Assembly (NCBI RefSeq): GCF_022410465.1 | Contig: NZ_JAJSON010000024.1 | Coordinates: forward strand, 1-64,000 | Reading direction: 5' to 3' | Origin: Christiangramia crocea | GTDB taxonomy: Bacteria; Bacteroidota; Bacteroidia; Flavobacteriales; Flavobacteriaceae | Length of the DNA: 64,000 bases | Shown here: piece by piece, positions 34,969 to 54,060 of the stretch | How the letters are laid out: each line of letters starts with the position of its first letter | How positions within the stretch are numbered: the first letter of the stretch is position 1 | Program-made: the position numbers and the translations under genes | The notes under the pieces: model-generated | Seen by the model: the letters and a program-made list of their open reading frames with translations, nothing else | Told to the model about the DNA's origin: nothing | The model's database searches: none

Positions 34969-37251
34969 TTACTTTTTCAAAGTGAATGTACCAGCGAATT
35001 CAGAATCTGAACTTCCCGCGATGAAAAATTCAAATTCACCGGGTTCATACACATATTCAATATCATAATTATAGAACTTAAGGTCTTCGGGAGAGATTGT
35101 AAAAGTCACCGTTTTAGACTCACCCTTTTTTAGGGCAATCTTCTGGAAACCTTTAAGTTCTTTCCCGGGAGGAGTTACGCTTCTCACGACATCCCTTATA
35201 TAAAGCTGAACTATCTCCTCTCCATCATAATTCCCGGTATTAGTAACAGTAGCACTTAACTCTATTGAACCATCGGCACTCAGCTCTTTAGAACTGGCTT
35301 TAACATCACTGTATTCGAAAGTGGTATAACTAAGCCCATAACCAAATGGAAGTAGCGGAGTATTAGGAGAGTCCAGGTAATTGGACTTGAATTTCTGGAA
35401 TTCACCTGATTCAGGCCCAGGTCTTCCAGTAGTCTTCATTCTGTAGTGTATTGGTATCTGTCCAACACTTCTAGGCCAGCTATTGGTAAGTTTTCCTGAG
35501 GGATTATAATCTCCGAATAAAACATCACCTACTGCATTTCCTGCTTCAACTCCCGGATGCCAGATCTGAAGAATGCTAACAGGAAGCGCCATTTCTTCTG
35601 AAATATCCAGCGGTCTACCACTCATTAAAACCAATACCAGAGGCTTACCTGTTTTTGCAAGTTCACTGATCAGTTTTTTCTGATTGTCAGGAATAGTGAT
35701 ATCGGTTCTGCTGGCCGCCTCTCCGCTCATTTCAGTAGCTTCACCCACCACTGCCACAACTACATCTGAAGCATTAGCCAGATCAAGAGCCTCCTTAAGT
35801 AGGGTTTCCGGAGACTCATCAGCGATCTGGATTTTTTCACCGAATACATTTACTTTTTTAGCAAAAGTGCTATCATCAGAGATATTAGCTCCCTTGGCAT
35901 AAGTGATATTTGCGTTTGGTGCAACGTTTTTAAGTCCCTCAAGAATCGGAACTGACAATTGAGGATTTCCCGTAGGTGCCCAGGTTCCCAGCATATTGTT
36001 CTTATTATTCGCAAGGGGGCCAATCATGGCAATATTGGCGTCCTTAGCCAACGGGAGTGTATTATTATGCTTTTTAAGAAGCACAAAAGATCTGGTTGCA
36101 GCTTTCCTGGCCAGGCTTCTGTTCTCTTCTGTAAGTATATCTTTTTCAGGTCGGCTTTCATCAGAATACAGGTAAGGATCATCCAGAAGGCCTATCTTAT
36201 GCTTTGCCTCCAGAATTCTTCTCGCCGCTTTCGTGATCTGATCTTCGGAAACCAACCCGTCTTCCACAGATTTTTTCAAGGTGGTTAAAAAGCCTTCTCC
36301 AACCATATCCATATCCAGTCCGGCGTTGATAGCTAAAGCTGAAACAGCCTGCAGGTCACCCAATCCGTGAGCGATCATTTCATTTACCGAAGTATAGTCT
36401 GAAACCACAAAGCCTTCAAAGCCCCATCTTTCACGAAGCAAGTCAGTTAAAAGCCATTTGTTCCCTGAAGCAGGGATTCCATCTATATCGTTAAAAGAGG
36501 TCATTACGCTTCCCACTCCCGCATCAACCGCAGCTTTATATGGAGGCAGGTATTCGTTGAACATTTTAAGACGGCTCATATCAACGGTATTATAATCTCT
36601 ACCGGCTTCAGGTGCTCCATATAAAGCCATATGCTTCACTGTTGCCATCATAGTGTGTGGCTGTGTAAGATCCTCTCCCTGGTATCCATGTACCATTGCT
36701 TTGGCTATTTGCGATCCCAGGTATGGATCTTCCCCTGCTCCCTCTGCAATACGACCCCAGCGCGGATCTCTAGCGATATCTACCATTGGAGAAAAGTTCC
36801 AGTTAATCCCGTCAGCCGTAGCCTCTTTTGCAGCCATTTGGGCTCCCTCTTTGATCAGGTCCATATCCCAGCTGGCAGAAAGTCCTAGTGGAATTGGATA
36901 AGTGGTTTTATATCCATGAATAACATCAGACCCGATAAGTAGCGGAATTCCCAAACGGGAGTTTTTAACGGCTAATTCCTGGGCCTGTCTCACTTTTGCA
37001 GGACTCGAAACTCCGAAAACTCCTCCAACTTTACCAGCCTTTATTTTAGCTTCCACACCTTCACTTACAACAGAACCTGTGGCCACACCTCCACCTGGAG
37101 TTAAAAGATTAAGCTGCCCAATCTTTTCTTCAAGGGTCATTTTTGCAAGTAATTCTTCTACTTGCGGGATCTTTTCCTGTGCGGATAGGAATGAAATTCC
37201 CAAAAAAGCTATACAGAATATCGATAAATAAATTTTCTTCATTGTCTTCAC
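34969..37251 (-). CDS. bglX: GH3 beta-glucosidase, BglX type
   Basis: A 760-residue periplasmic enzyme with a signal peptide (FLGISFLSAQ). The GH3 N-domain contains IGSDVIHGYKTTYPIPLGLS, the KH motif in MATVKHMALYG and the nucleophile Asp285 in FVVSDYTSVNEM. The C-domain carries MSGRPLDI and the glutamate-rich GEATEMSGEAASR, and a fibronectin-like domain ends the protein. BglX enzymes release glucose from beta-linked gluco-oligosaccharides; related Bacteroides enzymes include ones active on sophorose. It is the last gene of the PUL enzyme operon, 27 bases after the GH43 gene. Confidence 0.95.
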   Translation of the reverse strand: MKTMKKIYLSIFCIAFLGISFLSAQEKIPQVEELLAKMTLEEKIGQLNLLTPGGGVATGSVVSEGVEAKIKAGKVGGVFGVSSPAKVRQAQELAVKNSRLGIPLLIGSDVIHGYKTTYPIPLGLSASWDMDLIKEGAQMAAKEATADGINWNFSPMVDIARDPRWGRIAEGAGEDPYLGSQIAKAMVHGYQGEDLTQPHTMMATVKHMALYGAPEAGRDYNTVDMSRLKMFNEYLPPYKAAVDAGVGSVMTSFNDIDGIPASGNKWLLTDLLRERWGFEGFVVSDYTSVNEMIAHGLGDLQAVSALAINAGLDMDMVGEGFLTTLKKSVEDGLVSEDQITKAARRILEAKHKIGLLDDPYLYSDESRPEKDILTEENRSLARKAATRSFVLLKKHNNTLPLAKDANIAMIGPLANNKNNMLGTWAPTGNPQLSVPILEGLKNVAPNANITYAKGANISDDSTFAKKVNVFGEKIQIADESPETLLKEALDLANASDVVVAVVGEATEMSGEAASRTDITIPDNQKKLISELAKTGKPLVLVLMSGRPLDISEEMALPVSILQIWHPGVEAGNAVGDVLFGDYNPSGKLTNSWPRSVGQIPIHYRMKTTGRPGPESGEFQKFKSNYLDSPNTPLLPFGYGLSYTTFEYSDVKASSKELSADGSIELSATVTNTGNYDGEEIVQLYIRDVVRSVTPPGKELKGFQKIALKKGESKTVTFTISPEDLKFYNYDIEYVYEPGEFEFFIAGSSDSEFAGTFTLKK

Positions 37252-37278
37252 TTTTGATTATATATTTGGTTCTTCTTT

Positions 37279-39084
37279 CTATTTAACAAATATGGTCTCA
37301 GTGCTTTCTGAAATTCCATTTTCATTGAATGCCTCAATACTGAAATAATATTCAGTATCACGATCCAGGTTTCGCATAAAATGTTCATTCTTATCGTAGA
37401 TCAACCAGGACTGGTACAATTTATCAGGTGCAATACCCCACCTAATGTTATATCCCTGGGCTCCTTTCACTGGCTCCCACTTAAAAGAAGCGTCTCTTCT
37501 GTCTTCCTGACGGGTTACCGTAAAGCCCTTCACCTTTGCAGGCTTTTTACCCAATCCTTTACCGAACACCCTTATTTCAGATAAGGCCAGGTTTTTCCCA
37601 GGAACCTTCACATTGTTATAGCGCACATATTTCCCCTTTACAGGTTGATTAAGTGTGATATAGGCATTAGGTGCATCTTCATAACTATCACTTCTGTCCA
37701 CGACTGTCTCCCAATTTTTACCATCTTCTGAGATCTCCAGGGTAAATCTGTGTCTTAAGCTATCGATGCGTGTATAGATTTCAGAGTCCTGATCATGAAA
37801 ATTCAACTGAAACGCATATATTTTTCCCGGTGCCAGGAATTCGATCTCCACCCAATGTTTATCATTATTGGCTTCAGCTACCCAAAAAGATTTCGGGCTT
37901 TCATCGGTTAACACCTTAGAAATAATTTCACCTGCGCTGTTCTTTTCCAATGGCATTTCAGTGATATCATAATCACCATCTGTGGAAGTACTTTTACTAA
38001 TCTGCATTTGTGAAGAGGAAACCCGTGTATTTCCTTTATAGGAAAGCAACATCCAACCGGTATGCTTACCTGCTTTTGTTGGATGATCTGGTCCAAAGAG
38101 AGGATAATCACCGTAGCTGGTGTCTGTATACATTAATCCTTCGTCATCAAAATAGGTTGGAAACATACACAAACGGCGTTCCCAATGAGAATTGGATGCC
38201 AGGGCCATGGTGGCAAAATGCCAGTATTGTCCGTTGGTCTGTTTGACGGTAATTCCGTGGCCGGCTCCATTTGTAAAACCGCCCGGCTTAAAACTCATGG
38301 GATTATTTTTCATGTATTTAAAGGGACCTAGTGGGGTTTCTCCAATGTAGGCCGCATCTGCATACACATTAAACTGAGTACCGGGTGCCGCATATTGCAA
38401 ATAGTATTTACCATCATGCTTGGTCATCGAGGCACCTTCCATGTAGCCCTCCTTTAAAGTGGGATGATAATTATTTTCACCAAACCGTTCCCAGCCATGT
38501 TCTTCTTCCACCAGATTAATAAGATCTTTTTTAACTCCGGTCTCCAGAAAACGGTCATCTTTATCCAGCATCTTCACACGAATGGGATGAACGTTCGATG
38601 AACCCCAATACAAATAGGTTTTCCCGTCATCATCGATAAATAACTCCGAATCCTGGATATTGTTAGAAATTGAAGCGGTTGGTGTCCATTTACCACTTTT
38701 CGGGTCATCTGTGTAAAGAATACTACCGTAACCTGCAGGGTCACCCGCAAAATACACCAGCGAATCTTTGTAATTGAAAGCGGTTGGTGCATTGGAACCT
38801 TCAAAAAACCATTGCTCCGGTTTTATAAATTCCCAATTGATAAGATCCTTTGAATGCCAGTAGCCAAAAGAACGGGTAACAAACATGAAATATTCCCCCC
38901 GGTATTCTATTACTGCAGGATCGGCTCCGGAACGATAGGAAATATTATTAGCTGAATTATAAACCATATAGGTATAATCAATATCCAACGGGTTGATATA
39001 GGTTTCGGGTACTGTTTCCTGGGAATTAGCCATCAGGCCAAAGAGAATAGTTGCCGAGGTAAGTATATTTTTAAAAACTTTCAT
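37279..39084 (-). CDS. GH43-family enzyme with F5/8C and FN3 domains
   Basis: A 601-residue secreted protein. The five-bladed propeller (about residues 30-345) has the GH43 triad: base Asp55 (YRSGADPAVIEY), Asp145 (NNIQDSELFIDDDGKTYLYWG in the family sense) and acid Glu216 (EGYMEGASMTKHDG). A discoidin (F5/8 type C) domain of about 390-515 contains LRHRFTLEISEDGKNWETV, and a fibronectin type III domain ends the protein. GH43 covers alpha-arabinofuranosidases, beta-xylosidases and beta-galactosidases; the subfamily was not assigned. It lies 22 bases after the esterase gene. Confidence 0.86.
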   Translation of the reverse strand: MKVFKNILTSATILFGLMANSQETVPETYINPLDIDYTYMVYNSANNISYRSGADPAVIEYRGEYFMFVTRSFGYWHSKDLINWEFIKPEQWFFEGSNAPTAFNYKDSLVYFAGDPAGYGSILYTDDPKSGKWTPTASISNNIQDSELFIDDDGKTYLYWGSSNVHPIRVKMLDKDDRFLETGVKKDLINLVEEEHGWERFGENNYHPTLKEGYMEGASMTKHDGKYYLQYAAPGTQFNVYADAAYIGETPLGPFKYMKNNPMSFKPGGFTNGAGHGITVKQTNGQYWHFATMALASNSHWERRLCMFPTYFDDEGLMYTDTSYGDYPLFGPDHPTKAGKHTGWMLLSYKGNTRVSSSQMQISKSTSTDGDYDITEMPLEKNSAGEIISKVLTDESPKSFWVAEANNDKHWVEIEFLAPGKIYAFQLNFHDQDSEIYTRIDSLRHRFTLEISEDGKNWETVVDRSDSYEDAPNAYITLNQPVKGKYVRYNNVKVPGKNLALSEIRVFGKGLGKKPAKVKGFTVTRQEDRRDASFKWEPVKGAQGYNIRWGIAPDKLYQSWLIYDKNEHFMRNLDRDTEYYFSIEAFNENGISESTETIFVK

Positions 39085-39106
39085 TTAAATTATTCTATCT
39101 GAAATT

Positions 39107-39922
39107 TTAGTCTAATGTTTTTTTATTTCGCTCATGAGAAAACAACCATGGCAACAGATAGGGTTCAGAAAGAGCCGAATCCCAGCTGTTATGATTATCT
39201 TCAGGATAAAGAGATAACTTTGCGTTCCCTCCATAGTGATTGATAGTTCTGGCCATTGTTTTAGAAAATCTTGGCGGCACTATATCATCCTTTTCTCCAT
39301 GAAAGATCCAGATATTGAATCCTTTGGGATATTCTTCGGCAATTTCCTCATTAGCACCACCACAGATTGCAAAGGCTGCCGCGAACATTTCCGGTTTCTT
39401 GTAAATGATCTCGTAGGTGCCCATACCTCCCATGGAAAGACCACCAACATATACGCGATCACTATCCACAAAATCTTTAGAAACTATAGAATCCATAAGT
39501 TCCATTACCATCTCAAGTGATTTAGTTGGCTTTGCTTTGTTCATAAAATCAAACTGAAAGGGCATAGTATCCCTTTTTACCTCAACCTTGGCCCAGTAAT
39601 CTTCTTTCGGGGCCTGGGGAAAGATCACGATAGCGGGAAATTTTTCCCTGTTCTTTTCATTCAGGAAAAGATCTCCGCCATGTACCAGTTGAGATTCATT
39701 ATCATCTCCACGCTCTCCTGCACCGTGAAGAAAGAGAACTACGGGATACTCTTCATCTTCAGAAAAGGATTCCGGATAAAGGATCCTGTAATTCAGGGTA
39801 TCATCTTCCACAATAAAGTGTTCCTTTTTAAACTCTTCTTTAGATTGTGCATTTAATGTAATGGGAAACGTTAGCAGAACAGATCCCAACATTATCATAA
39901 AGTATCTTAATCTATTTTTCAT
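39107..39922 (-). CDS. Secreted alpha/beta-hydrolase, PHB depolymerase/CE1-like esterase
   Basis: A 271-residue protein with a signal peptide (LLTFPITLNAQ). It has an HGAGERGDDNESQLVHG oxyanion region, nucleophile Ser163 in YVGGLSMGGMGTYE, an Asp in HGEKDDIVPP and the catalytic His in PEDNHNSWDSAL. Such proteins in PULs act as acyl or feruloyl esterases; the ester here is unknown. The ATG at 39922 gives a better signal peptide than the in-frame codon at 39943 and overlaps the GH144 stop by 11 bases, indicating coupled translation. Confidence 0.82.
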   Translation of the reverse strand: MKNRLRYFMIMLGSVLLTFPITLNAQSKEEFKKEHFIVEDDTLNYRILYPESFSEDEEYPVVLFLHGAGERGDDNESQLVHGGDLFLNEKNREKFPAIVIFPQAPKEDYWAKVEVKRDTMPFQFDFMNKAKPTKSLEMVMELMDSIVSKDFVDSDRVYVGGLSMGGMGTYEIIYKKPEMFAAAFAICGGANEEIAEEYPKGFNIWIFHGEKDDIVPPRFSKTMARTINHYGGNAKLSLYPEDNHNSWDSALSEPYLLPWLFSHERNKKTLD

Positions 39923-41291
39923 AGCTAAAACCAAGCTTTTCAAGTCCGTTTTGTACTTCAGGTGCCTGCATAAAAAGATCCCAGATAAGCCCTGATCGAT
40001 AATTTTCGATCATAACAACCATTGGCCCCTGATCTATGGCAAGATATTTTTCGGCAGCCCATGGTTCTCCTTCAAGGCTATAGGCATCATAGAATCCTGC
40101 CGGTCCCCATAAAAGGTCATTCAGGTCTGTAAAGAAATATCTCATTGCCCTAAGGGATTTGTCCGGGGTATAAGGAATAGAACTAATCGCTGCGGTAGGT
40201 GAAACTACGCCCCTATCACTATCTGGTGAATGTGCGGCATAACCGATACTCCCGTCCTCCTTTCTGGTGTAACTGGCAGTGAGGCCCCAGGAGCTTGGCC
40301 CATAGGTCTCAAAATTCTCAGGGTTCTCCTGGCAATATTCATAATTGATATTGGTATGATTCACATTCAGGTTCCAGTAATTAGCGTACTTATCTGTAAG
40401 CCCTTTTGGGTTAAGGCCGAGATAGGAATAGTGAGCCCAGAATAATGGCCCTCCTTTATCTCCTCTGGTGTTATGCTTCAGAATCAGCGGAATTCCATAG
40501 GCTTCCACATCAGTGGTGATATTACCACTTCTTGCCCAGCCTTCGTGGTAAGCTGCAGCGTCTATCGCATGTTCTGGTGACGAAGCCGCCATAACATACG
40601 TGATAAGGCATTCATTATAACCTTCTATCATAAAATCCATTTCCCATTCGTAAACAGGAGACCAATGCCAGTATATTCCATTCTTATTATTGGTGTACCA
40701 GTTCCATTCAATTCCTTTCCATAGTTCATCATATTTTTTTGCCACGGCCTTTTCTTTTTCCGAACCATTCTTAAGGTATTCCCTGACAACGATGAAACCT
40801 TGTGCGAGAAACGAAGTTTCCACAATATCACCTCCATTATCTTTTTCACCAAAAGCCTGAACCTCGCCGGTCTCTCCATTAAGCCAATGTGACCAGGCAC
40901 CATGGAATCTAGGGGCTTCTGCAAGAAAATCTGCGATCTTCTCAAGTCGGGCTACTGCGGAATCACGAGGGATAAAACCTCTGTCAATTCCGGCTACAAT
41001 TCCCATTAAACCGAAACCGGAACCACCTGTAGTAACCACATGGGCATCATTTTTTGGATATTTCCCATCCGGATGATAACGTTCCCTAGCCATACCGCTG
41101 TTAGGTTCGGCATAATCCCAAAAATATTTTAATGTCTGTTTTTGAACAGTATCAAGTAAGGCCTCTTCAGAAATTTCTATTTCAGAAGCTGACTTTTCCT
41201 TCCCGCCTTCTGATGTCTCCTTATTTTTGTCCTTACAGCCAATAAATATGAATACTCCCAGTAGTATTATTAAAAAAGATTTGTTCAACAT
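39912..41291 (-). CDS. GH144-family endo-beta-1,2-glucanase-like lipoprotein (copy A)
   Basis: A 459-residue lipoprotein (FIFIGC, Cys19). The glycoamylase-type (alpha/alpha)6 fold is indicated by LKYFWDYAEPNSGMARERY, VTTGGSGFGLMGIVAGIDRGF, HGAWSHWLNGETGE, NGGDIVETSFLAQG, YWHWSPVYEWEMDF and GPMVVMIENYRSGLIWDLFM. GH144 members are endo-beta-1,2-glucanases in the best-studied Bacteroidota. Lipidation suggests display at the outer membrane, where it would cut polymer for SusCD. It lies 31 bases after the second copy and was probably made by tandem duplication. Confidence 0.88.
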   Translation of the reverse strand: MLNKSFLIILLGVFIFIGCKDKNKETSEGGKEKSASEIEISEEALLDTVQKQTLKYFWDYAEPNSGMARERYHPDGKYPKNDAHVVTTGGSGFGLMGIVAGIDRGFIPRDSAVARLEKIADFLAEAPRFHGAWSHWLNGETGEVQAFGEKDNGGDIVETSFLAQGFIVVREYLKNGSEKEKAVAKKYDELWKGIEWNWYTNNKNGIYWHWSPVYEWEMDFMIEGYNECLITYVMAASSPEHAIDAAAYHEGWARSGNITTDVEAYGIPLILKHNTRGDKGGPLFWAHYSYLGLNPKGLTDKYANYWNLNVNHTNINYEYCQENPENFETYGPSSWGLTASYTRKEDGSIGYAAHSPDSDRGVVSPTAAISSIPYTPDKSLRAMRYFFTDLNDLLWGPAGFYDAYSLEGEPWAAEKYLAIDQGPMVVMIENYRSGLIWDLFMQAPEVQNGLEKLGFSYEK

Positions 41292-41322
41292 TTGAATTTT
41301 ATTGAAGTAAAAAGTTTAATTA

Positions 41323-42675
41323 TTAATACAGAAATCCCAGTTTTTCAAGGCCATCCTTAATTTCCTGATTTCTCATAAACAAATCCCAGAGCAATTGAGA
41401 ACGATAATTTTCTATCATAGCTACAATGGGACCCTGGTCTATCGCGAGCCAGCCATTAGAAACCCAGTCGTGCTCCTCTGAAAACGCATCATAAAACCCA
41501 TATTCTCCCCATAGTTCAGAATTCATATCTTCATAAAAATGTCTCAATGCGGCCATAGATTTCTCAGGGGTATACGGAAAAGAGGACAATGCAGCGGTTG
41601 GAGTAATCACTCCAAGATCATTGGTAGGGCTATGAGCCGCATAGCCTTCATGACTATCTGAAGCCGTAAGGCCCCAGGTTTCTTCTCCATATCCTTCATA
41701 ATTTTTAGGGTTATCTACACAATATTCATAATTGATCATTGTATGGGCTAAATTCTGTTGCCAGTAATTGGCATAATCGTCCTGGAGATTCCTTGGATCC
41801 AAACCAATAAATGAATAATGACTAAAGAATAATGGTCCACCATAAGACTGCCCCAATGGTAAATCAATACCATAATGAGTTCTGTTGGTCACAATATTTC
41901 CATTTGAAGCCCATCCGCTTTTATAGACCTCTTTCTCTATGGAATAAGTGGGTGACGAAGCTGCCAAAACATATACTATTAGCGCTTCGTTCCATCCTTT
42001 GATGGGAAGATTGATCTGAAAATTATACTCTGGAGACCAGTGCCAGTAAAGAACATCGTTCCCATTGGTATACCAGGTCCATTCTACATTTTCCCAAATC
42101 TCGGTAATTCGGGATTGAATATCATTTTCATCAAAATATTCACGGCATATAAGCAAACCCTGCATTAGAAAAGCTGTTTCAACAAGATCTCCTCCATTAT
42201 CCAACTGACTGAATGGTCTTGCTTGAGCAGTACTGCCCAGATACCAGTGAGAATAAGCTCCATGATAGGTAGGTGCTTTTTCAAGAAAATCCAGAATTTT
42301 TTCAAGTCTTGTTACCGCTTCATCTCGTGTAACCCATCCACGTTCCACTGCGGCAGGAAAAGAAGCAAGGCCAAAGCCAGTTCCACCTGTTGTTACAAGA
42401 TTAGGAGACTGACCTCCATAAGCGTTATCCTGAGATCTTTCTCGTGCCATTCCGGTTGTAGGTTCGGCAAAATCCCAGAAATAATTAAATGTGGTTTCCT
42501 GTACAAGATCTAAAAGCTCTTCATCGGTAAGTGAAGGCACCTCACTCTGGCCATCATCTGTAGGATCGGGAATATAGGGTTCCTGATAACCCGGTCCTGA
42601 ATCATTGGAACATGAAAAAAATAGTATTAATCCGAATAAATAAAGATATCCACGCATTTCTGGTAATTTGTTCAT
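41323..42675 (-). CDS. GH144-family endo-beta-1,2-glucanase-like lipoprotein (copy B)
   Basis: A 450-residue lipoprotein (lipobox FFSC; Cys22 from the first ATG, Cys16 if the ATG at 42657 is used). Shares the full motif set of copy A: FNYFWDFAEPTTGMARERS, VTTGGTGFGLASFPAAVERG, HGAYSHWYLGST, NGGDLVETAFLMQG, YWHWSPEYNFQINL and GPIVAMIENYRSQLLWDLFM. It has the same fold with changes at several substrate-side positions, so the two copies may differ in chain length or linkage preference. It is the first gene after the terminator at 42890-42920 and so probably starts its own transcript. Confidence 0.88.
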   Translation of the reverse strand: MNKLPEMRGYLYLFGLILFFSCSNDSGPGYQEPYIPDPTDDGQSEVPSLTDEELLDLVQETTFNYFWDFAEPTTGMARERSQDNAYGGQSPNLVTTGGTGFGLASFPAAVERGWVTRDEAVTRLEKILDFLEKAPTYHGAYSHWYLGSTAQARPFSQLDNGGDLVETAFLMQGLLICREYFDENDIQSRITEIWENVEWTWYTNGNDVLYWHWSPEYNFQINLPIKGWNEALIVYVLAASSPTYSIEKEVYKSGWASNGNIVTNRTHYGIDLPLGQSYGGPLFFSHYSFIGLDPRNLQDDYANYWQQNLAHTMINYEYCVDNPKNYEGYGEETWGLTASDSHEGYAAHSPTNDLGVITPTAALSSFPYTPEKSMAALRHFYEDMNSELWGEYGFYDAFSEEHDWVSNGWLAIDQGPIVAMIENYRSQLLWDLFMRNQEIKDGLEKLGFLY

Positions 42676-42889
42676 TTTTCATCTGCCTTTTCTTCGCGGC
42701 CAGTATTCATTTTTTCAGAATCGTTCTTTCTATCTCAATACACCGACAAAACCTCAGTAAAGAGAATACCTTTCCTGTTCAAAGCTGAATGAAAGAGATA
42801 GTTAGAATGTGACTTAAAAAGAGATTATATCTATTCCGAAATTCGTCGGTATTAAAGTTCGATTAGTTTACGTTTAAAATGAAAAGAAA
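42676..42889 (-). promoter_or_regulatory. Promoter region for the GH144-GH144-esterase-GH43-GH3 operon
   Basis: About 214 bases without a gene lie between the susCD terminator and copy B of GH144. No exact TAnnTTTG box was seen on the minus strand, so the promoter cannot be placed. Its existence is inferred from the terminator just upstream. Read-through from susCD is the alternative. Confidence 0.35.
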
Positions 42890-42920
42890 CTCCGGAACTA
42901 AAGGTTCCGGAGCTTTTTTT
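42890..42920 (-). terminator. Terminator between the susCD unit and the GH144 unit
   Basis: CTCCGGAAC / GTTCCGGAG with a five-base loop (TAAAG). On the minus strand it is followed by TTTCTTTTC. Confidence 0.85.
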
Positions 42921-44673: not shown

Positions 44674-46275
44674 TTAGTTTAAATCGTTCAATACATTATT
44701 CATCTCAGAGTTTGGATCTACCGATGAAGCATCAAGTGGCAAAGCATCCACCTGAGCCTGAGGATAAGGAAGGTATTCTTTATCTGCACTAAATGTTCTT
44801 CCATCATAGCTTAACTCATCATACATATCCAATCGGATCATGTCGTAATAACGAATTCCCCATTCCATGGCCAGCTCTGCAAATTTCTCGTCCATTACAT
44901 CCTGAAGGGTTACTCCGGAAATCGGATCCATATCGGCCCTTGCTCTCACAAGATTAACCGCTTCATCAGCAGACATTCCTACACCGCTTGCTCCCTGTAC
45001 GAGGGCCTCAGCATACATCAGTAATACTTCTGCGTATCTGATAACAATCATATTCTTACCAGCTCCATAGTTGTTTCGGCCATCTGTCAACTGAACAGAG
45101 GGTAAATAATGCTTACCACTAGCAAAATAAGCACGTGCATAGTCATTGATAACATCACCAGATCTGGTAGTATTCGAAACGAATGATGGAAGGTTTGTAT
45201 ATCCATCAGCTTCAATTTCGGCTATACCTCTATCGGTAAACAATACGCTGGTTTCCAGACGAACCGTCTCGTCGCGATCAAGCATAAACTCGATGAATTT
45301 AAAACTTGGCTCATAGAATCCCCATCCGCTGGATGCATTCTCCCTTTCCGGAGTCCATCCCTGCGGACCAAACGGTGCATATAAATGATAAAAGGCATCC
45401 CCGGTTTCAGAACCGTAATCTGAATATTGCATTTCAAGTAAACTCTCGTCACTCAATTCTCCAGGTTTTTTAAATAGTTGATAGAAATCAGGATAGAGTG
45501 AAAATTTACCTGAGCTGATTATTGCACCGGCAGCATCTGCCACAGCCTGATAATTCCCAGTTCCAAGGCTAGCAAGTTCAAGGTTAGCCAGTGCTTTCAT
45601 GGCATAGGCCGTATATTTGGTTACCCCACCAGGAATATCAGTACGCTCATTAGGTCTGGCATCCGGAAGATGTGGAATAGCCTCATCCATCTGATCTGAT
45701 ATGAACTGCATGATCTCGGCTTTAGATGACACACCTGCTTCTATCTCTTCTTCCGGCTGGTTGGATGTAATAATGAATACATCTTCCCAAACACGGGCCA
45801 GATTAAAATGGAACCAGGCTCTAAAAACCATGATCTCGGCAATATATTGATTCCCTCGGTCCCAGTCAGCACTACCTTCTTCAACAAATTCCAGATAATT
45901 CTCTATTTGAAGTATCGCAGTATTCATATCGATAATATCAGCATAATGGATGTTCCATAAAGAATTATACATCCAGTAATCTTTGGTATATTCATATTGG
46001 TCTGTGGCTGCAAAAGGTTGCTGATCTCCCAGACCTCCAGCATTCACATCGTCACCGCGAACACCAAGCAACAATGGTTCTTCCCATCCTCTACTTGCAA
46101 ATTCACTATATGCTCCAATTAGAGGTGAGATCATATCTTCCGTATCGGTATAATCTATATCAGCCGTATTTAATTGACCTTCTGTTGTTTCCAGTTTATC
46201 GTGACATGAACTAAGCATGCCCACAACAAACAGCGCAAATGCACTCAGGAATATTGTATTCTTAAATTTTTTCAT
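44674..46275 (-). CDS. susD: SusD/RagB-family glycan-binding lipoprotein
   Basis: A 533-residue outer-membrane lipoprotein (MLSSC, Cys24) that forms the lid on the SusC channel. Marks: N-terminal domain with TPR-like helices (FRAWFHFNLARVWEDVFI), TAYAMKALANLELASLGTGNY, and a C-terminal RagB/SusD end with VIRYAEVLLMYAEALVQ, RARADMDPISGVT and EWGIRYYDMIRL. The gene lies 12 bases after susC, so they are cotranscribed and form a pair. Confidence 0.96.
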   Translation of the reverse strand: MKKFKNTIFLSAFALFVVGMLSSCHDKLETTEGQLNTADIDYTDTEDMISPLIGAYSEFASRGWEEPLLLGVRGDDVNAGGLGDQQPFAATDQYEYTKDYWMYNSLWNIHYADIIDMNTAILQIENYLEFVEEGSADWDRGNQYIAEIMVFRAWFHFNLARVWEDVFIITSNQPEEEIEAGVSSKAEIMQFISDQMDEAIPHLPDARPNERTDIPGGVTKYTAYAMKALANLELASLGTGNYQAVADAAGAIISSGKFSLYPDFYQLFKKPGELSDESLLEMQYSDYGSETGDAFYHLYAPFGPQGWTPERENASSGWGFYEPSFKFIEFMLDRDETVRLETSVLFTDRGIAEIEADGYTNLPSFVSNTTRSGDVINDYARAYFASGKHYLPSVQLTDGRNNYGAGKNMIVIRYAEVLLMYAEALVQGASGVGMSADEAVNLVRARADMDPISGVTLQDVMDEKFAELAMEWGIRYYDMIRLDMYDELSYDGRTFSADKEYLPYPQAQVDALPLDASSVDPNSEMNNVLNDLN

Positions 46276-46287
46276 TTTGCAAATTTT

Positions 46288-49200
46288 TTAAATTTTTATG
46301 TTAAGCCCTACAGTATATGTAGCAGGCACTGGGTAGGTTTGCCTATCCACGCCATTTGGCACCTCGGGGTTAAACCCATTATACTCGAAGAAAGTAAATG
46401 GCTTCTCTGCTGTAAAATAAAGTCTGGTAGTGGGTAACTTTTCAGAATTAATGGTATAAGCCAATTGAATGTTCTGAATTCTGAAAAAATCTCCATCTTC
46501 TATCCAAAAATTACTTAACCTCTGGTTCCAGGCCTTACGCAATCCTGCAGAGGACGGATAAGTGTTGCTGGTTCCTTCTCCATGCCATCTGTTTATAGCA
46601 AGGTCGGCATCCATATTCGTATCCTGCGTGAATATTATCTCACCTCGTTTTCGGTTCAAAATCTTATTTCCTACCTGACCATAGAAGTTCATTGAGAAAT
46701 CCCATGATTTATAAGAAACTCCAATATTACCACCATAAGTGAAATCTGGCAGGAAAGAACCCAGTATCACCCTGTCTGCATCGTCAATTACCCCATCCCC
46801 GTTCTGATCTCGATAGATAAGGTCTCCGGGTACAAGGTTATTTTCTACTGCAACTGGATCGGCATCGATCTGGGCCTGGTTTTGATAAACACCCACCCTT
46901 TCATAACCGTAAAAGGCGAAAAGTGGACCTCCTATTTCAGTTCTTTGACGGAATTCAGCCGTTCCTGCGTCAATATAACCTCTTTCATCTTCAATCTCTA
47001 TGGCCTCATTATCCACAGTAGTGAAGTTACCACCGATAGTATAGGTAAAGTCTTCGGAAATCGTTCCGTTCCAATTACCACTTATTTCGAGCCCGGAATT
47101 CCTGATAACCCCGGAATTCCTATTAATACTCGTGTTGATTATAGGAATAAACACCGGTAAAATAGCATCTTCTGTATCTCTTATATAATAATCGGCTGTT
47201 AAAGAGAGTCTTCTATCAAATGTCTCAATATCAATACCGAAGTTCTTTTCTTCAATAACTTCCCAGGTGTTATTTGAGAAAACACTCGTAGAGGTAATTC
47301 CGGTACGTGGAACGTCACCTAAAGCGGCGGTAACAACATTAATCGTATTTGCTCCAGAACTGGCTGCGACATTATCGTTACCTAACTTACCCCAGCTGGC
47401 TCTTAATTTCAAAAATTGAAATATCTCGTTACCTAGCATAAATTCTTCTTCAGAAACAACCCATCCTAAACCTACAGACGGGAAGTATCCCCATGGATTC
47501 TGGGTAAACTTGGAAGAACCATCTGCTCTGAAGGTTCCATATAACAGATATTTGTCCTTGAAGTTATATGCAAGTCTTCCGAAATAGGAGACCCCATAAT
47601 ATCTTCTTCCAATTTCACTTACATTATTGTTAAATGAATCAGGATCGGCAAAATCTAAAAATCTACTCGATTCTAAACGAATTCCCGCTATATCCTGACC
47701 TAAAACATTGAATTCATTTGAAGCTTCATCTCTGTAGGAAGCACCGGCCATAAGAGTTATGTCATGATCTCCAAATTCATCATCATAGGTGAGAATGTTA
47801 TCCCAGTACTGATTAGAAAAAGTATTATTTATCCTTCTAATACTGGAGATTCTTTCAAAGTTATTTCCTAAAGTATACGGGAGGTTTACATAACGTTCTT
47901 CCAGAGCTGAGAAATTATGACTGTAAGTGGTTTTAAAATCCAGCTTGTCTGGAATGATATCGAACTGAAAATATAAACTTGTAAGCAGCTTTCTTATCTT
48001 CAACCGATTTTCATTATAAGTCAGGTCCTGAAATGGGTTTTGCGTCCCCCTATATCCAAGCAACTGAGCGTTTGAATAACGAATTGGTGCGGCAGCAGTA
48101 TTCGTAGAATCGATAACCGGCATCAGCGGTACCGCAAAATACGCTCTAAACCAGGCACCATTTTCAGGAGCAAATTTAGTTGCATTACTAAAAACCGAAT
48201 TAACCCCCGCTTTAAACCTGTCAGATATATCTACATCTAATTTTGACCTTATATTAAAGCGTTCATATTCATTCTTCATGTCCAGAATACCTTCCTGAGC
48301 CAAATAGTTTGTCCCTACAGAGTAAGCTACCCTTTCTCCTCCTCCGGTAACACCGATACTATGACTCTGAATAATACCATCACGCAGAATCTCATCATAC
48401 CAGTCTGTATTTACAGCAGGAACATTTGGATTAACACGACTTCTTCCATATCGCTGCATGGCATTCATCACAAATTGCACATCGGCTTCAGAACCTGATT
48501 CCTGGGCCATTGTCACAAATTGCTCGGTATTAGCCAACTTTACGACGTTCTGAGCACGTTGAATTCCTGTATAACCGTCATATTCAAATTCAGGTTTCTG
48601 ATTCAATTTACCCGATTTAGTCTCAATAATAACCACACCATTTGCGGCTCTTACCCCATAGATTGCAGATGAAGAGGCATCTTTTAATATGTTAATAGAC
48701 TTAATATCCTTTGTATTAAGGAAATCAATATTATCATATAAGGTACCATCCACTACATAAAGGACGTTCGTTGCGTCCTGGTAGGTTCCTAGTCCACGAA
48801 TTCTTACAGTTGGCGAATCCCCTGGTGAACCAGAACTAACGATTTGTACACCTGAAACCTTACCTTGTAAAGACTGCATAGCGTTTGCCGTTGGAGTTTT
48901 TTCGATCTCTTCAGCATCCACTGTTGCTATAGATCCGGTTAAATCCCTTTTCTTTTGAGTACCATAACCCACAACCACGACTTCTTCCAATTGCCCTGCG
49001 TCTTCCTGCAGAGAAACCGGATACTCTGAACTTGTAGTTACCTCAATCTCCTGTGCTGCGAAACCAAGGAAGGTTACTCTGAACACATCTCCCACTTCAA
49101 CGTTCTCCAAAGTAAAGTTTCCGTCAAAATCGGTTACATCAAAAATCTCCTTACCAATTACCTTAATTTCAGCTCCTGGTAAGGGTACATCATTGGCATC

Positions 49201-49317
49201 CGTCACGACACCATTAATAGTTTTAGTTTGCTGCGCGTAACTAAAGCTCATAAAAGCCAGAAAAAACGTGCAAGCCAAGAATAGTTTCACTTTCATACTC
49301 GTAGGGTGTTTTTGCAT
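46288..49317 (-). CDS. susC: SusC/RagA-family TonB-dependent outer membrane transporter
   Basis: About 1,009 residues. A signal peptide (FLAFMSFSYAQQ) is followed by a carboxypeptidase-regulatory-like domain (INGVVTDANDVPLPGAEIKV), a TonB-dependent plug (VVVGYGTQKKRDLTGSIATV, RIRGLGTYQDATNVLYVVDG) and a 22-strand barrel. It imports oligosaccharide using TonB energy. The ATG at 49317 (alternative 49296) was chosen because the region up to 49398 codes for no signal peptide and starts with GTG. A candidate promoter is at 49358-49388 and the regulator gene lies just upstream. Confidence 0.96.
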   Translation of the reverse strand: MQKHPTSMKVKLFLACTFFLAFMSFSYAQQTKTINGVVTDANDVPLPGAEIKVIGKEIFDVTDFDGNFTLENVEVGDVFRVTFLGFAAQEIEVTTSSEYPVSLQEDAGQLEEVVVVGYGTQKKRDLTGSIATVDAEEIEKTPTANAMQSLQGKVSGVQIVSSGSPGDSPTVRIRGLGTYQDATNVLYVVDGTLYDNIDFLNTKDIKSINILKDASSSAIYGVRAANGVVIIETKSGKLNQKPEFEYDGYTGIQRAQNVVKLANTEQFVTMAQESGSEADVQFVMNAMQRYGRSRVNPNVPAVNTDWYDEILRDGIIQSHSIGVTGGGERVAYSVGTNYLAQEGILDMKNEYERFNIRSKLDVDISDRFKAGVNSVFSNATKFAPENGAWFRAYFAVPLMPVIDSTNTAAAPIRYSNAQLLGYRGTQNPFQDLTYNENRLKIRKLLTSLYFQFDIIPDKLDFKTTYSHNFSALEERYVNLPYTLGNNFERISSIRRINNTFSNQYWDNILTYDDEFGDHDITLMAGASYRDEASNEFNVLGQDIAGIRLESSRFLDFADPDSFNNNVSEIGRRYYGVSYFGRLAYNFKDKYLLYGTFRADGSSKFTQNPWGYFPSVGLGWVVSEEEFMLGNEIFQFLKLRASWGKLGNDNVAASSGANTINVVTAALGDVPRTGITSTSVFSNNTWEVIEEKNFGIDIETFDRRLSLTADYYIRDTEDAILPVFIPIINTSINRNSGVIRNSGLEISGNWNGTISEDFTYTIGGNFTTVDNEAIEIEDERGYIDAGTAEFRQRTEIGGPLFAFYGYERVGVYQNQAQIDADPVAVENNLVPGDLIYRDQNGDGVIDDADRVILGSFLPDFTYGGNIGVSYKSWDFSMNFYGQVGNKILNRKRGEIIFTQDTNMDADLAINRWHGEGTSNTYPSSAGLRKAWNQRLSNFWIEDGDFFRIQNIQLAYTINSEKLPTTRLYFTAEKPFTFFEYNGFNPEVPNGVDRQTYPVPATYTVGLNIKI

Positions 49318-49357
49318 TAATTGTAAAAGAAAGATACACCCAAAGGCCAATTTTACG

Positions 49358-49388
49358 CAAACGTTGTAGTACACAACTACTACTTCAA
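49358..49388 (-). promoter_or_regulatory. Candidate susC promoter with inverted repeat
   Basis: On the minus strand a TTG (49388-49386) is 20 bases from AACGTTTG (49365-49358), a two-part promoter with one mismatch in TAnnTTTG. Between them lies GTTGTAGTACACAAC (49364-49378), with arms GTTGT and ACAAC. The placement between -33 and -7 is where an operator would act. Confidence 0.45.
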
Positions 49389-49492
49389 GTAAAAACACAT
49401 TCTATTTTCCTGATTTTCAACTACTTAACAGTATTTTGAAGTATATTTTTATAATAATATTTTGAATATGATGTAGTAATGTAGTAGTATGT
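49361..49492. promoter_or_regulatory. Cluster of GTAGT/ACTAC motifs in the regulator-susC spacer
   Basis: The motif recurs as GTTGTAGTACACAACTACTA from 49364, as CAACTACTTAAC from 49418 and as GATGTAGTAATGTAGTAGTA from 49470. Both orientations occur. Inferred to be binding sites of the LuxR-type regulator encoded next door. Confidence 0.4.
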
Positions 49493-49513
49493 TTTTGGTA
49501 TTATTTTGATGAA

Positions 49514-49541
49514 TTATTAAGAATTTAGAAATTCTTAATAA
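49514..49541 (-). terminator. AT-rich hairpin at the 3' end of the regulator gene
   Basis: A 13-base perfect stem (TTATTAAGAATTT / AAATTCTTAATAA, two-base centre) covers the stop codon. No clear T-tract follows on the minus strand, so termination is uncertain. Confidence 0.45.
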
Positions 49542-52266
49542 GGAATTTTGTCAGGTTCACATCACTTTCGAGCTTCATCTTCTTTCTTAAACGATATCTA
49601 TGCACTTCAACGCCCCGTACCGAAATTCCCATAAGGGGAGCAATTTCCTTTGAGCTTAAGTTCATCTTAAGGTAGGAGCATAGTTTCAAATCCTTGCTAG
49701 TAAGCTTCGGGTATTGTTCCAGTAAATCTTTAAAGAAATCTTCATGGACTTCATTAAAATTAGTTTCAAAAACCTTCCATTCATCCTTATTCTTAACAGC
49801 ATTATTAATTTTATTCATTATATGTTTAATGCGGAACTGATTGGAAAATTTGTTCTTATCCTTGTTAAGTTCTCCCTGGATTTCCATTAACACCTCATTT
49901 TTTTTCGCGGCCATCATGGTGGTGTTAGCTAATTCCTTTCTTTTCAGGTCAATTTCGTTCATCAGTCGCTGTTTTTCAAGCCGGTTCAATCTTTCTGAGT
50001 GTTCTTTTTCAAATTTTTCTTCAAGTTGAAGCTGATGCTTTTTAAGCTTTTGCTGGTTAAGCCAGAAAACAAGGAAAAAAATTGCAACCAATATAAAGGC
50101 ATAGACGGTTTTCATCCAGATTGAAAAATACCAGGGCGGTGCGATGGTGAAATTAAAGTTTTCGCTGGACACCTGATTAAGAGAACCTCCTATTGCGCTT
50201 AATTGCAAATTGTAATCACCGTGCTTCAAGTTTCTGAAATTTACCTGACCCCCATTCACTGTTCCACTCAGCTTTTCTTCCCCATTTAATGTATATTTCA
50301 ATTCCATGGCTTCGGAAACCGGCATTCCGGCTTTCAAGCTTATATTTTTTGCATTTCGGTAAGGGATTACAGGAGATCCCTCCAGGGAATATCGTTTAAC
50401 TTCATCTGAAAACTCTTTTAGAATCGGAGTACTTATCCACTGGTCTTCCATTTCTTTCTGAACCTTTTTAAGGTTTATGCGTGCAAAACCATCATTAAGA
50501 GTTACAAAGGAAATAGAATCATTTAAGCTAATAAAATTCTCATTTCCTTTAACCAACCTGTTATTAAGCTTTTGTGCAGGAATGGAAAGTTTATCTCCTT
50601 TTAGATTGGTAATGATTAAGGACCCATCATTTGAGTCTACAAAAACATACTTATTATAATCGTCTTTAATTATGAGCCTGCAACTATCATAGGCATGGAG
50701 TTCTTTGAAATTCTCAAATTTATCAGTGAACGGATTATACTTATACCATTGCTCGTTTACATAGGAAATTATCTGATCGTTGATCTTATATATCTCGGGA
50801 CTGAAATTCTCGCTATTACCCAAGGCAGGAATTTTCTCGACCTGAATATCCTCCCAGCTACCGGTAGTGATTTTGTAAATACCTTCGTATGGATGTGCTG
50901 CCCAAATCTTGTTCTCTCCCTCAAAAACAACTTCTTTTACAGGAAAATTAACCGCTTCCAATTCCCTTATTTCCTCAAGCGCCGGGTTATAAAGACTAAG
51001 CCCGGTATAGTGACATACCAGCAACTGTTCCTCTTTATCCCTTTTTATGATGGAAAAGCTCCCGGTTCGGGTTTCAACTGGTATAAATTGGTTATTTATG
51101 ATCTTATAGGTACCCGTGTTGTGGTTAGCATATAATACATTATCTATAAGCTCGAGATTCCAGGCATGATCAGCTCCGTTATCTATTAACTCAAGTTTTT
51201 CATTAGAAAACCTGTAGACCCCCGTATTACTGGCCAAATAATAATTATCCCTATAGATTTGAAGATCATAAACCGCCCCCAGTTCGCCGGTATTATCCGT
51301 ATAAAATTTAATAGGTGAATTTAGTTCTATTAGATCAACCCCATTATCCAGGGCCAGCCATAATTTATCCCTGGCATAGGCCATTCCCAGTATGGTATTA
51401 TTCTGAAGTCCTGAATTTCGATTGAAAACATGAAAACTATCCTCTTTAATATTATAATGGATTATTCCATTTTTAATAGTCCCCAACACAAGTTCATTAC
51501 CGGAAACAGAAATAATGTGATTTAATTCAGTTTTGGCCAGAAGCGAATTAAGTTTATCGTTCCAGAACCTTTTAAAACGATTGTTAGAATAGAAATATAA
51601 TCCTTCCCTAGCACCTATATATAACGTATCCCCCGAGGACTCGAGATCAATAATATTCAGATCTTCAATAACACCTGGATTTCCTTCTAAAGGTTTTATA
51701 GCACCAGAGTCATTCACATAGACAATTCCATTCTTCCTTGGTGCCAATAATAATTTATCCTGAAACCTGCCGAGCGCGGTAGAAACTAAATCTTCAATTT
51801 TGGTGATTTTATTATCCTGATATTTATAAACTGCTCCAAAAGACCTAAAATAAATGGCATCATTATGTGAAGTTATCTCCCAGAATTCATCACTTTGCAT
51901 ATTGATCTCGTCCATAAGAGGTGTTAGCGAATTATATGTCATACAACCTTCATCGGTTGTCTCCCAGTAACCAAATTCCTGATAAGACCCAGTATATATT
52001 CTTCCATTATGCGGATAAACCGAACGAATAATTGATTGACTCTCGAGGGGAAATAGCTCCCAGTTTAAACCATCAAAAACCAATAAGCCCTGATTATTTG
52101 CCGTATATACTACGCCACGTTCATCCACAGCAATATCCCAATTCTGACTTGCAGCTACATACTCACTTGGTGAAAAGTTTTGTATAGGTGGCACTAATTC
52201 CTGTGAATAAGAATAAAATCCACTTAAACAAAACAAAACCAGAATTTTAAAGCAGAATAATTTCAT
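49525..52266 (-). CDS. Membrane-bound Y_Y_Y / LuxR-HTH regulator without kinase domain
   Basis: About 913 residues from the ATG at 52266 (signal peptide LFCLSGFYSYSQ). A long periplasmic beta-propeller region is followed by a Y_Y_Y domain (about 645-720, with NFRNLKHGDYNLQLSAIGG), one membrane segment (TVYAFILVAIFFLVFWL), a coiled coil and a C-terminal LuxR-type HTH (LTSKDLKLCSYLKMNLSSKE, then VEVHRYRLRKKM). No histidine kinase or receiver domain is present, unlike hybrid two-component PUL regulators. It probably senses sugar in the periplasm and binds DNA directly. It lies 207 bases upstream of susC on the same strand. Confidence 0.87.
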   Translation of the reverse strand: MKLFCFKILVLFCLSGFYSYSQELVPPIQNFSPSEYVAASQNWDIAVDERGVVYTANNQGLLVFDGLNWELFPLESQSIIRSVYPHNGRIYTGSYQEFGYWETTDEGCMTYNSLTPLMDEINMQSDEFWEITSHNDAIYFRSFGAVYKYQDNKITKIEDLVSTALGRFQDKLLLAPRKNGIVYVNDSGAIKPLEGNPGVIEDLNIIDLESSGDTLYIGAREGLYFYSNNRFKRFWNDKLNSLLAKTELNHIISVSGNELVLGTIKNGIIHYNIKEDSFHVFNRNSGLQNNTILGMAYARDKLWLALDNGVDLIELNSPIKFYTDNTGELGAVYDLQIYRDNYYLASNTGVYRFSNEKLELIDNGADHAWNLELIDNVLYANHNTGTYKIINNQFIPVETRTGSFSIIKRDKEEQLLVCHYTGLSLYNPALEEIRELEAVNFPVKEVVFEGENKIWAAHPYEGIYKITTGSWEDIQVEKIPALGNSENFSPEIYKINDQIISYVNEQWYKYNPFTDKFENFKELHAYDSCRLIIKDDYNKYVFVDSNDGSLIITNLKGDKLSIPAQKLNNRLVKGNENFISLNDSISFVTLNDGFARINLKKVQKEMEDQWISTPILKEFSDEVKRYSLEGSPVIPYRNAKNISLKAGMPVSEAMELKYTLNGEEKLSGTVNGGQVNFRNLKHGDYNLQLSAIGGSLNQVSSENFNFTIAPPWYFSIWMKTVYAFILVAIFFLVFWLNQQKLKKHQLQLEEKFEKEHSERLNRLEKQRLMNEIDLKRKELANTTMMAAKKNEVLMEIQGELNKDKNKFSNQFRIKHIMNKINNAVKNKDEWKVFETNFNEVHEDFFKDLLEQYPKLTSKDLKLCSYLKMNLSSKEIAPLMGISVRGVEVHRYRLRKKMKLESDVNLTKFLIKNF

Positions 52267-52359
52267 ATTGTATACTAATTTGTGCAATTATTGAGCAGGT
52301 GAAAAGTTACAATTTTACAGGAAAACTTTTGTATTTTCACTCTTTAAAAAAACCATTTT

Positions 52360-54060
52360 ATGCATATTTCACCTGTTTCATTTCGGCCATATTTAAGTTT
52401 TATCCTGATCATCCCATTTATTATCCTAAGTTGTAAAAATAACAAGGATGAAGAGTCCGAAGAAAAACCCTTCACATCGCAAAGGCCAAATATTGTTTTT
52501 ATAATGTCAGACGATCATGCCGAGCAGGCAATTAGTGCCTATGGGCATCCGGTAAGTCAGCTTGCGCCAACCCCTAATATTGATAGAATTGCCAATAATG
52601 GAGCTAAATTCCTGAACAACTTCTGTACAAATTCAATATGCGGCCCCAGTCGTGCAGTGATACTGACCGGAAAGTTCAGCCATATTAACGGCTTTCGAAT
52701 GAACGGAGAAGTTTTTGATGGTTCCCAGCCTACCCTTCCAAAATATTTAAAAGAAGTTGGTTATGAGACGGCTATCGTCGGGAAGTGGCACCTTCATGGT
52801 AAACCTCAGGGTTTCGACTACTGGAATATTCTTAACGACCAGGGAAATTATTATAATCCTGAATTCATTCGTGAAAATGATACCACCATAGTCAATGGTT
52901 ATGCGACAGACATTATTACTGAGATGGGCATAGAATGGCTGAAAAACAAAAGAAGTTCAGATAAGCCATTCTTTTTAATGGTACATCATAAAGCACCTCA
53001 CCGTAACTGGATGCCGCCCCTGAGACACATAAATACATATGATTCAGTCACATTCCCCCTGCCTGAAACCTATTTTTCAAAACATGAAAATCAGGTGGCT
53101 GCAAAGGAACAGCTTCAGACAATTTATGAGGACATGTATGAAGGCCACGATCTTAAGATGACAGTTGCAAAAGGAAGCGATTCCTTAAGACACAACCCGT
53201 GGACATCCGATTTTGAAAGAATGACGAACGAACAACGAGATGCCTGGAATGCTGCCTACCGTCCTAAAAATGATACTTTTCATGATTCAAATCTCAGTGG
53301 AAGGGAGCTGGCAGAATGGAAAGGCCAACGCTATCTGCGTGATTATATGGGAACTGTTACCGCTGTTGATGAAGGTGTGGGAGAAATCCTTGATTATCTT
53401 GAAGAACAAGGTCTTACCGAAAACACGATTATCGTGTATACTACCGATCAGGGCTTCTATCTTGGAGAAAAAGGGTTCTTTGATAAGCGTTTTATGTATG
53501 AAGAATCTCTAGCCATGCCATTATTAATGCAATATCCGCCTGTAATAAAACCAGGGACCACTATAGACGCGCTTACTCAAAATCTGGATTTCGCACCTAC
53601 ATTCCTTGATTTTGCTAATGCCCAAATTCCGGAAGAAATGCAGGGAAAATCTTTAAAACCTCTATTGACCGGAAAAGCTGATGAAGACGAATTCAGAGAT
53701 GCTATTTATTACCATTATTATGATTTTCCAGCCTTCCATATGGTAAAACGCCAGTATGGTGTAAGGACAGAGAGGTATAAATTAATTCACTTCTATGATG
53801 ATATTGATACCTGGGAGTTATATGATCTAGAAGAAGACCCCCAGGAAGAGAACAACCTGTATGGAGATCCGGAATATGCCGAAGTACAGAAGAAACTGCA
53901 TACCAAACTAAAGTCCCTTCAGGAAAAGTATAAGGTAACAGAAGATGAATTTAAAACCACCCCTGATGAGAGAGTCGAAAGGGCCTACAGGAATTTCGCC
54001 AGACTTGCAGGCGAAGATCCTGAAACCTATCCGGAAAAGAAAAAGACTAAAGTAGATTAG
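52360..54060 (+). CDS. S1-family sulfatase lipoprotein
   Basis: A 566-residue lipoprotein (FIILSC, Cys25) of the formylglycine-dependent sulfatase family. Metal ligands Asp51-Asp52 (IVFIMSDDHAEQ), the C-x-P-S-R activation motif CGPSRAVILTG (Cys94), GKWHLHGKPQGFD, HHKAPHRNW and a later YTTDQGFYLGEKGFFDK match the family. It would remove sulfate esters from a glycan after conversion of Cys94 by a maturase, which is not in this window. It is divergent from the PUL regulator. Its substrate is unknown; the placement suggests a sulfated part of the PUL substrate. Confidence 0.92.
   Translation: MHISPVSFRPYLSFILIIPFIILSCKNNKDEESEEKPFTSQRPNIVFIMSDDHAEQAISAYGHPVSQLAPTPNIDRIANNGAKFLNNFCTNSICGPSRAVILTGKFSHINGFRMNGEVFDGSQPTLPKYLKEVGYETAIVGKWHLHGKPQGFDYWNILNDQGNYYNPEFIRENDTTIVNGYATDIITEMGIEWLKNKRSSDKPFFLMVHHKAPHRNWMPPLRHINTYDSVTFPLPETYFSKHENQVAAKEQLQTIYEDMYEGHDLKMTVAKGSDSLRHNPWTSDFERMTNEQRDAWNAAYRPKNDTFHDSNLSGRELAEWKGQRYLRDYMGTVTAVDEGVGEILDYLEEQGLTENTIIVYTTDQGFYLGEKGFFDKRFMYEESLAMPLLMQYPPVIKPGTTIDALTQNLDFAPTFLDFANAQIPEEMQGKSLKPLLTGKADEDEFRDAIYYHYYDFPAFHMVKRQYGVRTERYKLIHFYDDIDTWELYDLEEDPQEENNLYGDPEYAEVQKKLHTKLKSLQEKYKVTEDEFKTTPDERVERAYRNFARLAGEDPETYPEKKKTKVD

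Follow-up and report, generated by a model that had tools for sequence, protein, structure and literature searches.

We describe a complete polysaccharide utilisation locus (PUL) of Christiangramia crocea, a flavobacterium from a marine genus. It occupies positions 34969-54060 of the 64,000-nucleotide stretch analysed (the window; contig NZ_JAJSON010000024.1, positions 1 to 64,000 of the forward strand, RefSeq assembly GCF_022410465.1, genome size 3.9 Mb in 32 contigs). With a probability of roughly 0.68, it serves the utilisation of beta-1,2-glucan and belongs to the marine kind of such loci, in which a sulfatase is included. The best reading of its substrate is a beta-1,2-glucan decorated with sulfate, with an ester and with a substituent labile to its GH43 enzyme. 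The locus combines a SusC/SusD pair, carbohydrate-active enzymes and a regulator, as expected of a Bacteroidota PUL. Each of its ten genes is an intact open reading frame (ORF) at the expected place, and the families that a sequence-only reading had given them (SusCD, a LamG protein, two GH144 proteins, GH3, GH43, an esterase, a LuxR-type regulator and a divergent sulfatase) hold under Pfam and NCBIfam. Across genomes, both the sulfatase and the GH43 gene are linked to GH144.

Linkage of the sulfatase to GH144

The sulfatase gene (52360..54060, plus strand) encodes an S1 sulfatase with the Pfam domains Sulfatase and SGSH_C, the motif CGPSR and a lipoprotein-like N terminus. We surveyed 397 Flavobacteriaceae genomes for this protein (match threshold E <= 1e-200) and, for GH144, searched the profile PF10091 in 397 genomes of the family drawn in the same way. 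Orthologues of the sulfatase were present in 60 of the 397 genomes, one per genome and all at least 62% identical, and these genomes span 46 of the 237 sampled genera. PF10091 was found in 105 of the 397, which include every one of the 60 with the sulfatase; the other 45 carry GH144 and no sulfatase of this clade. A copy was counted as placeable when a GH144 gene lay on the same contig among the matches listed, and in 57 of 57 such copies the distance between the two genes was at most 20.2 kb, with 44 at a distance of at most 10 kb. The sulfatase stands downstream on the GH144 strand in 48 of them and upstream on the opposite strand in nine, the window among the latter. Three of the 60 genomes were unplaced: in G095 the GH144 gene is on another contig, and G222 and G450 are GH144-positive by the tally. 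The sulfatase is a real partner of the PUL, linked to GH144 across genera as in the marine sulfatase-bearing GH144 PULs, and a single, narrow clade of S1_11-like sulfatases is for the most part devoted to such loci.

Internal stops are listed for the sulfatase matches in genomes G022, G028, G036, G091, G224, G252, G276, G381, G409 and G450, and those listed for G019 affect either the sulfatase match or a second match there. The fetched loci of G022, G028 and G036 (L024, L030 and L038) contain an uninterrupted sulfatase ORF, so that their listed stops are probably outside the gene.

The named loci come from the best 80 of 503 confirmed GH144 relatives and were split by rank into a first set (L003-L039, 37 loci), whose genera we take to be mostly marine or saline, and a second set (L040-L082, 43 loci), from Flavobacterium and near relatives. 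Within these best 80, the nearest loci are those of other Christiangramia species, with GH144a 78-85% identical. Sulfatases of at least 63% identity occur in 28 of the 37 first-set genomes. Fourteen of them are inside the fetched locus, and 12 more are, by their coordinates, within ~7 kb past its end and presumably on the same contig, as was confirmed for two of the 12 by finding them on the contig of GH144 in the 397-genome survey. The sulfatase of L015 is found at a contig end beside a partial regulator gene, which is consistent with linkage, and that of L035 is in another kind of locus. None of the 43 second-set loci contains the sulfatase; a 66-67% identical protein is encoded on another contig in two of the 43 genomes, and a 53% homologue in one. 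The first set is thus marked by the sulfatase, by two or more GH144 genes (31/37, against 0/43 in the second set) and by the LamG protein, homologues of which (E <= 1e-15) are present in 22/37 and 0/43 loci, respectively. In a wider sample of 395 Bacteroidota genomes, all eight sulfatase matches of at least 65% identity, the window's own included, come from Flavobacteriaceae; three with 54-57% identity come from outside this family.

Predicted specificity of the sulfatase

Cys94, Pro96 and Arg98 are invariant among 16 aligned sulfatase sequences (fetched loci gave 16 sulfatase ORFs, of which that of L038 is not in the alignment) and belong to the C-x-P-x-R pattern, the formylglycine motif of S1 sulfatases. 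The top match among solved structures is 9s03, a 'putative sulfatase' (863 bits) and a much closer relative than 5g2v, an N-acetylglucosamine-6-sulfatase (557.6 bits), and 7p24, a mucin-desulfating sulfatase (544.8 bits), which we take to be the S1_11 enzymes BT4656 and BT3177. All three chains show Ser at the position of the window sulfatase's Cys. The likeness to BT4656 and BT3177 extends over most of the protein and includes Asp375, Arg377 and His460, which are invariant among the 16 aligned sequences and have identical counterparts in 5g2v and 7p24. In contrast to these two enzymes, the window sulfatase has GH144 as its PUL partner and not heparin or mucin enzymes.

A review of S1 sulfatases describes for S1_11 an exo-action on 6-O-sulfated N-acetylglucosamine (GlcNAc) through a triad of His (contacting O3) and Asp/Arg (contacting O4), and states that about half of S1_11, aquatic members especially, are without the N-acetyl-binding region and use the same triad to recognise L-galactose (PMC10154612). 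D375, R377 and H460 are consistent with the His and Asp/Arg triad and may be its counterparts; the assignment to S1_11, which comes from the nearest solved relatives, is probable and not proven. Since S1_11 is described as acting there, an S1_11-like sulfatase predicts that a terminal residue, gluco-configured or L-galactose, carries sulfate at O6.

GH43, GH3 and esterase

The GH43 protein (37279..39084, minus strand), which also has F5/8C and fn3 domains, is a predicted side-chain exo-glycosidase. D55, D145 and E216 are invariant among 18 aligned sequences, and we presume catalytic roles for them from GH43 in general; the AlphaFold model (18 sequences) has a mean pLDDT of 74.6. A survey of the 397 Flavobacteriaceae genomes at E <= 1e-150 gave 33 matches in 31 genomes. 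All 31 of these genomes hold GH144 and 22 of them the clade sulfatase, which makes GH144 the likelier partner of GH43. Measured against one GH144 copy per genome, 19 of the 20 matches of at least 77% identity are within 20 kb of GH144, as are 8 of the 13 matches of at most 50% identity. Homologues of GH43 (~36-39% identical) occur in 43/43 second-set and 21/37 first-set loci.

The same data bear on the question of which sugar is sulfated. It is possible, if on the unlikely side, that the backbone is a beta-1,2-glucan and the sulfate is carried by a side-chain sugar (6-sulfated L-galactose, 6-sulfated GlcNAc or another), on which the sulfatase would act, perhaps together with GH43. This is a sub-case of the favoured reading, and the odds of the two overlap. 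It agrees with the action of S1_11 on 6-sulfated GlcNAc and with the use of the same triad for L-galactose by aquatic members, as given in the review cited above, and the distance between GH43 and the sulfatase is at most 5 kb in 8 of the 20 close and 5 of the 13 distant matches. However, the two genes are no fixed pair, as 9 of the 31 GH43 genomes lack a sulfatase of this clade and, at E <= 1e-150, GH43 goes unmatched in 38 of the 60 genomes with the sulfatase. Furthermore, Pfam and NCBIfam reveal no obvious galactosidase or hexosaminidase in the operon, although an adjoining GH2 gene (see below) could encode one.

GH3 (34969..37251, minus strand) has N- and C-terminal GH3 domains and an Fn3-like domain and is a beta-glucosidase of the BglX type (equivalog NF011678, 873.9 bits, cut-off 666), predicted to carry out the final exo-hydrolysis of beta-1,2-gluco-oligosaccharides. 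Its best solved match is 3u48 (984.5 bits), and it also matches 5xxl (915.9 bits), which we take to be the sophorose-active BT3567. The esterase (39107..39943, minus strand) is an alpha/beta-hydrolase with a predicted role in O-acyl removal. Homologues of it (E <= 1e-15) are present in 37/37 first-set and 36/43 second-set loci; those of the second set are remote (~23-28% identical), and a looser tblastn search finds them in 39/43. GH3 homologues are present in 43/43 second-set loci. The combination of GH144, esterase, GH3 and GH43 is thus a general flavobacterial theme. The mix that had struck the sequence-only reading as unusual is therefore not so, since it recurs in loci that have no sulfatase.

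The two GH144 proteins

GH144a (39912..41291, minus strand) and GH144b (41323..42675, minus strand), both predicted endo-beta-1,2-glucanases with N termini that look lipoprotein-like by eye, give the only two PF10091 matches in the genome (268.4 and 266.4 bits, cut-off 27) and are 53% identical to each other. Over most of their length they match a solved endo-beta-1,2-glucanase, 5gzk (587.7 bits for GH144a and 513.8 bits for GH144b) and also 5gzh, which we take to be CpSGL, in agreement with a match in residue numbering; CpSGL numbers were obtained by shifting those of the 5gzk chain by 20. D135, D139, E142, E211, F268, Y330 and D400 are identical in GH144a and in GH144b, seven of seven in each. 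In a study of this enzyme clan, mutation of D135, D139 or E142 in CpSGL is reported to cause a drastic loss of activity, with E142 as the most plausible general base; D400 mutants retain sufficient activity, E211, F268 and Y330 served the authors for superposing a family member, and the SGL clan is said to be defined by E239, F286 and Y367 of XcSGL (PMC12102758). The window differs from the CpSGL case in having two GH144 genes and in having them alongside a sulfatase.

The sequence-only reading named a GH144 of new specificity as its alternative; the backbone would then not be a beta-1,2-glucan. Neighbouring enzymes can depart from expectation: a Bacteroides xylanisolvens GH35 enzyme, encoded beside a GH144 homologue, is reported to be a beta-1,2-galactosidase inactive on beta-1,2-gluco-oligosaccharides. 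With all seven CpSGL key residues kept, however, the sequence offers no reason to suppose a new GH144 specificity, and an altered active site was set aside on this ground. The matches of 514-588 bits and the BglX-type GH3 likewise argue for the known activity, and we consider the alternative improbable.

Sulfatase copies outside GH144 loci and other points against

Several observations weigh against the reading of the locus as a sulfatase-bearing beta-1,2-glucan PUL. Firstly, members of the sulfatase clade also occur away from GH144 loci, in cases outside the 397-genome sample. Copies in Flavobacterium rakeshii (L083:8977-10617) and F. beibuense (L084:8968-10608) lie outside them, in a nearly identical ORF layout; no GH144 or SusCD match was found within ~10 kb of either, and the neighbours in L083 include the gene for tyrosyl-tRNA synthetase and others without the look of a PUL, with a TonB-dependent receptor ~3 kb off. 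Two further copies, each ~63% identical to the PUL sulfatase, are accompanied by SusC/SusD homologues, DUF2961 proteins (presumably CAZy family GH172) and another S1 sulfatase (stretches L086:3733-9012, from a Leeuwenhoekiella metagenome-assembled genome, and L087:9059-15590, with a second copy in Zunongwangia pacifica). GH144 was not found in these two stretches, the L086 contig being only 10 kb long, and by their gene content they apparently represent a different type of sulfated-glycan PUL. Pfam covers 9 of 14 listed ORFs in L083, 3 of 6 in L086, 6 of 11 in L087 and none in L084.

Secondly, 9 of the 37 first-set genomes have no sulfatase orthologue, and the co-occurrence of sulfatase and GH144 (Fisher p ~1e-42) was evaluated by a test that ignores phylogeny. 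The sulfatase, GH43 and Bacteroidota surveys were limited to three candidates per genome, such that second copies may escape. Thirdly, GH43 is missing from the 38 sulfatase genomes mentioned above, and phmmer, a profile search and Foldseek found no close characterised relative of it but remote GH43-type matches only (best profile match 61.1 bits; identity of at most 22% among the 50 Foldseek matches listed), for which reason we name no sugar for this enzyme. Finally, S1_11 also takes GlcNAc-6-sulfate and L-galactose-6-sulfate, so that the sulfate is not necessarily on the glucose of the backbone.

It is very improbable that the sulfatase has no part in the PUL and merely adjoins it or scavenges sulfate in general: the genome does contain 20 sulfatase genes, some orthologues lie outside GH144 loci and the gene is divergent from the operon, but in the sampled family a chance neighbour was set aside on the co-occurrence in 60 of 60 genomes and the linkage in 57 of 57 copies, 48 of them on the GH144 strand.

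A possible pathway

For the decorated beta-1,2-glucan that we favour as substrate, and going beyond the observed gene content, conserved residues and gene linkage, we infer the backbone linkage, the position of the sulfate, the cell location and the order of steps as follows. The glycan would be held at the surface by the LamG protein and SusD, its beta-1,2-glucan backbone would be cut by both GH144 proteins, and the oligosaccharides would be imported through SusC. In the periplasm, the esterase would take off O-acyl groups, the S1 sulfatase would remove the 6-O-sulfate from the non-reducing end, GH43 would remove the side sugar and GH3 would release glucose. The LuxR-type regulator would switch the locus on.

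A glycan related to the bacterial osmoregulated periplasmic glucans, but sulfated, would be a natural source; the known substituents of those glucans are also found on glucose O6. It is conceivable, at odds somewhat worse than even, that a widespread and chemically undescribed marine 6-O-sulfated, O-acylated beta-1,2-glucan exists and that this S1 clade is its dedicated 6-O-sulfatase; if true, this glucan would be the sulfated counterpart of the osmoregulated periplasmic glucans. The PUL-linked sulfatase and GH43 offer two handles for finding the glycan, namely a 6-O-sulfate and a GH43-labile side sugar, and with 9s03 the structure of a close relative of the sulfatase has already been solved.

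Relation to published loci

The proposal of a decorated beta-1,2-glucan stands as the best reading, with sulfatase and GH43 both tied to GH144 by co-occurrence and linkage, yet, contrary to what the sequence-only reading had believed, it is not new. Lapebie et al. (2019, PMC6499787) state that marine GH144 PULs add a sulfatase, propose an unknown sulfated marine polysaccharide as the substrate and count GH144 beta-1,2-glucan PULs among the abundant PUL types. The present locus is like theirs in being a GH144 PUL with a sulfatase in marine Bacteroidetes and in leading to the same supposition of a sulfated glycan; the sulfatase subfamily, GH43, the esterase and linkage numbers are not among the material of that paper that was compared. 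Much the same core (GH3, two GH144, susCD and sulfatase genes) is described upstream of AlgPUL1 in Maribacter dokdonensis 62-1, in a paper that also states that GH144s are present in all Maribacter and Zobellia (PMC8072126). The excerpt of this paper does not mention GH43, an esterase or LamG, and it reads the cluster as glucosidase or endoglucanase activity. Our locus is therefore one more case of the GH144 PULs with sulfatase that have been in print since 2019. What is new here is the delineation of the sulfatase clade, with numbers and exceptions, and the parallel linkage of GH43 to GH144.

The open-licence literature in PubMed Central yielded, in the parts of it available, no report identifying the glycan of the marine sulfatase-bearing GH144 PULs and also no paper on 9S03; papers on NS5 and on the Mariana Trench mention GH144 in the parts available, with no bearing on sulfate.

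Gene order and genomic surroundings

On the minus strand the order is SusC, SusD, the LamG/Big_7 protein, GH144b, GH144a, esterase, GH43 and GH3. SusC (46288..49398) is a TonB-dependent transporter that scores 789 bits with the SusC/RagA model TIGR04056 (cut-off 368), and it is followed by a SusD-like protein (44674..46275) and by the Big_7 and Laminin_G_3 protein (42924..44666), a predicted surface glycan-binding protein with a lipoprotein-like N terminus. Intergenic gaps from SusC to GH3 are mostly 7-31 nt, with 248 nt between the LamG and GH144b genes, and there is an overlap between the esterase ORF and the GH144a stop, of 32 nt with TTG as the esterase start and of 11 nt with the ATG of codon 8. 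With gaps so short and this overlap, the genes from SusC to GH3 look like one operon. The regulator gene (49525..52287) precedes SusC on the same strand; its product has a C-terminal LuxR-type (GerE) helix-turn-helix and is predicted to control the locus. The listed regulator ORF has an ATG at codon 8, and 72 nt separate its listed start from the divergent sulfatase gene beyond it.

A convergent cluster on the plus strand adjoins the PUL (window 30238-34912) and encodes three proteins: an esterase of the BD-FAE type, one with no more than a weak match to Imm65, and a GH2 protein with a malectin domain. First-set loci contain homologues of the esterase in 16/37, of the weak-Imm65 protein in 6/37 and of GH2 in 12/37 cases, and the second-set loci (0/43) contain none; this cluster may extend the pathway of the PUL. 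A tRNA-Arg gene (tcg) is located at window 29596-29670 on the minus strand, ~0.6 kb from the start of the cluster. Elsewhere in the genome, 15 of its 20 sulfatase matches fall within ~50 kb on one contig (G000:C17:275571-325370), a stretch that is perhaps a large sulfated-polysaccharide PUL.

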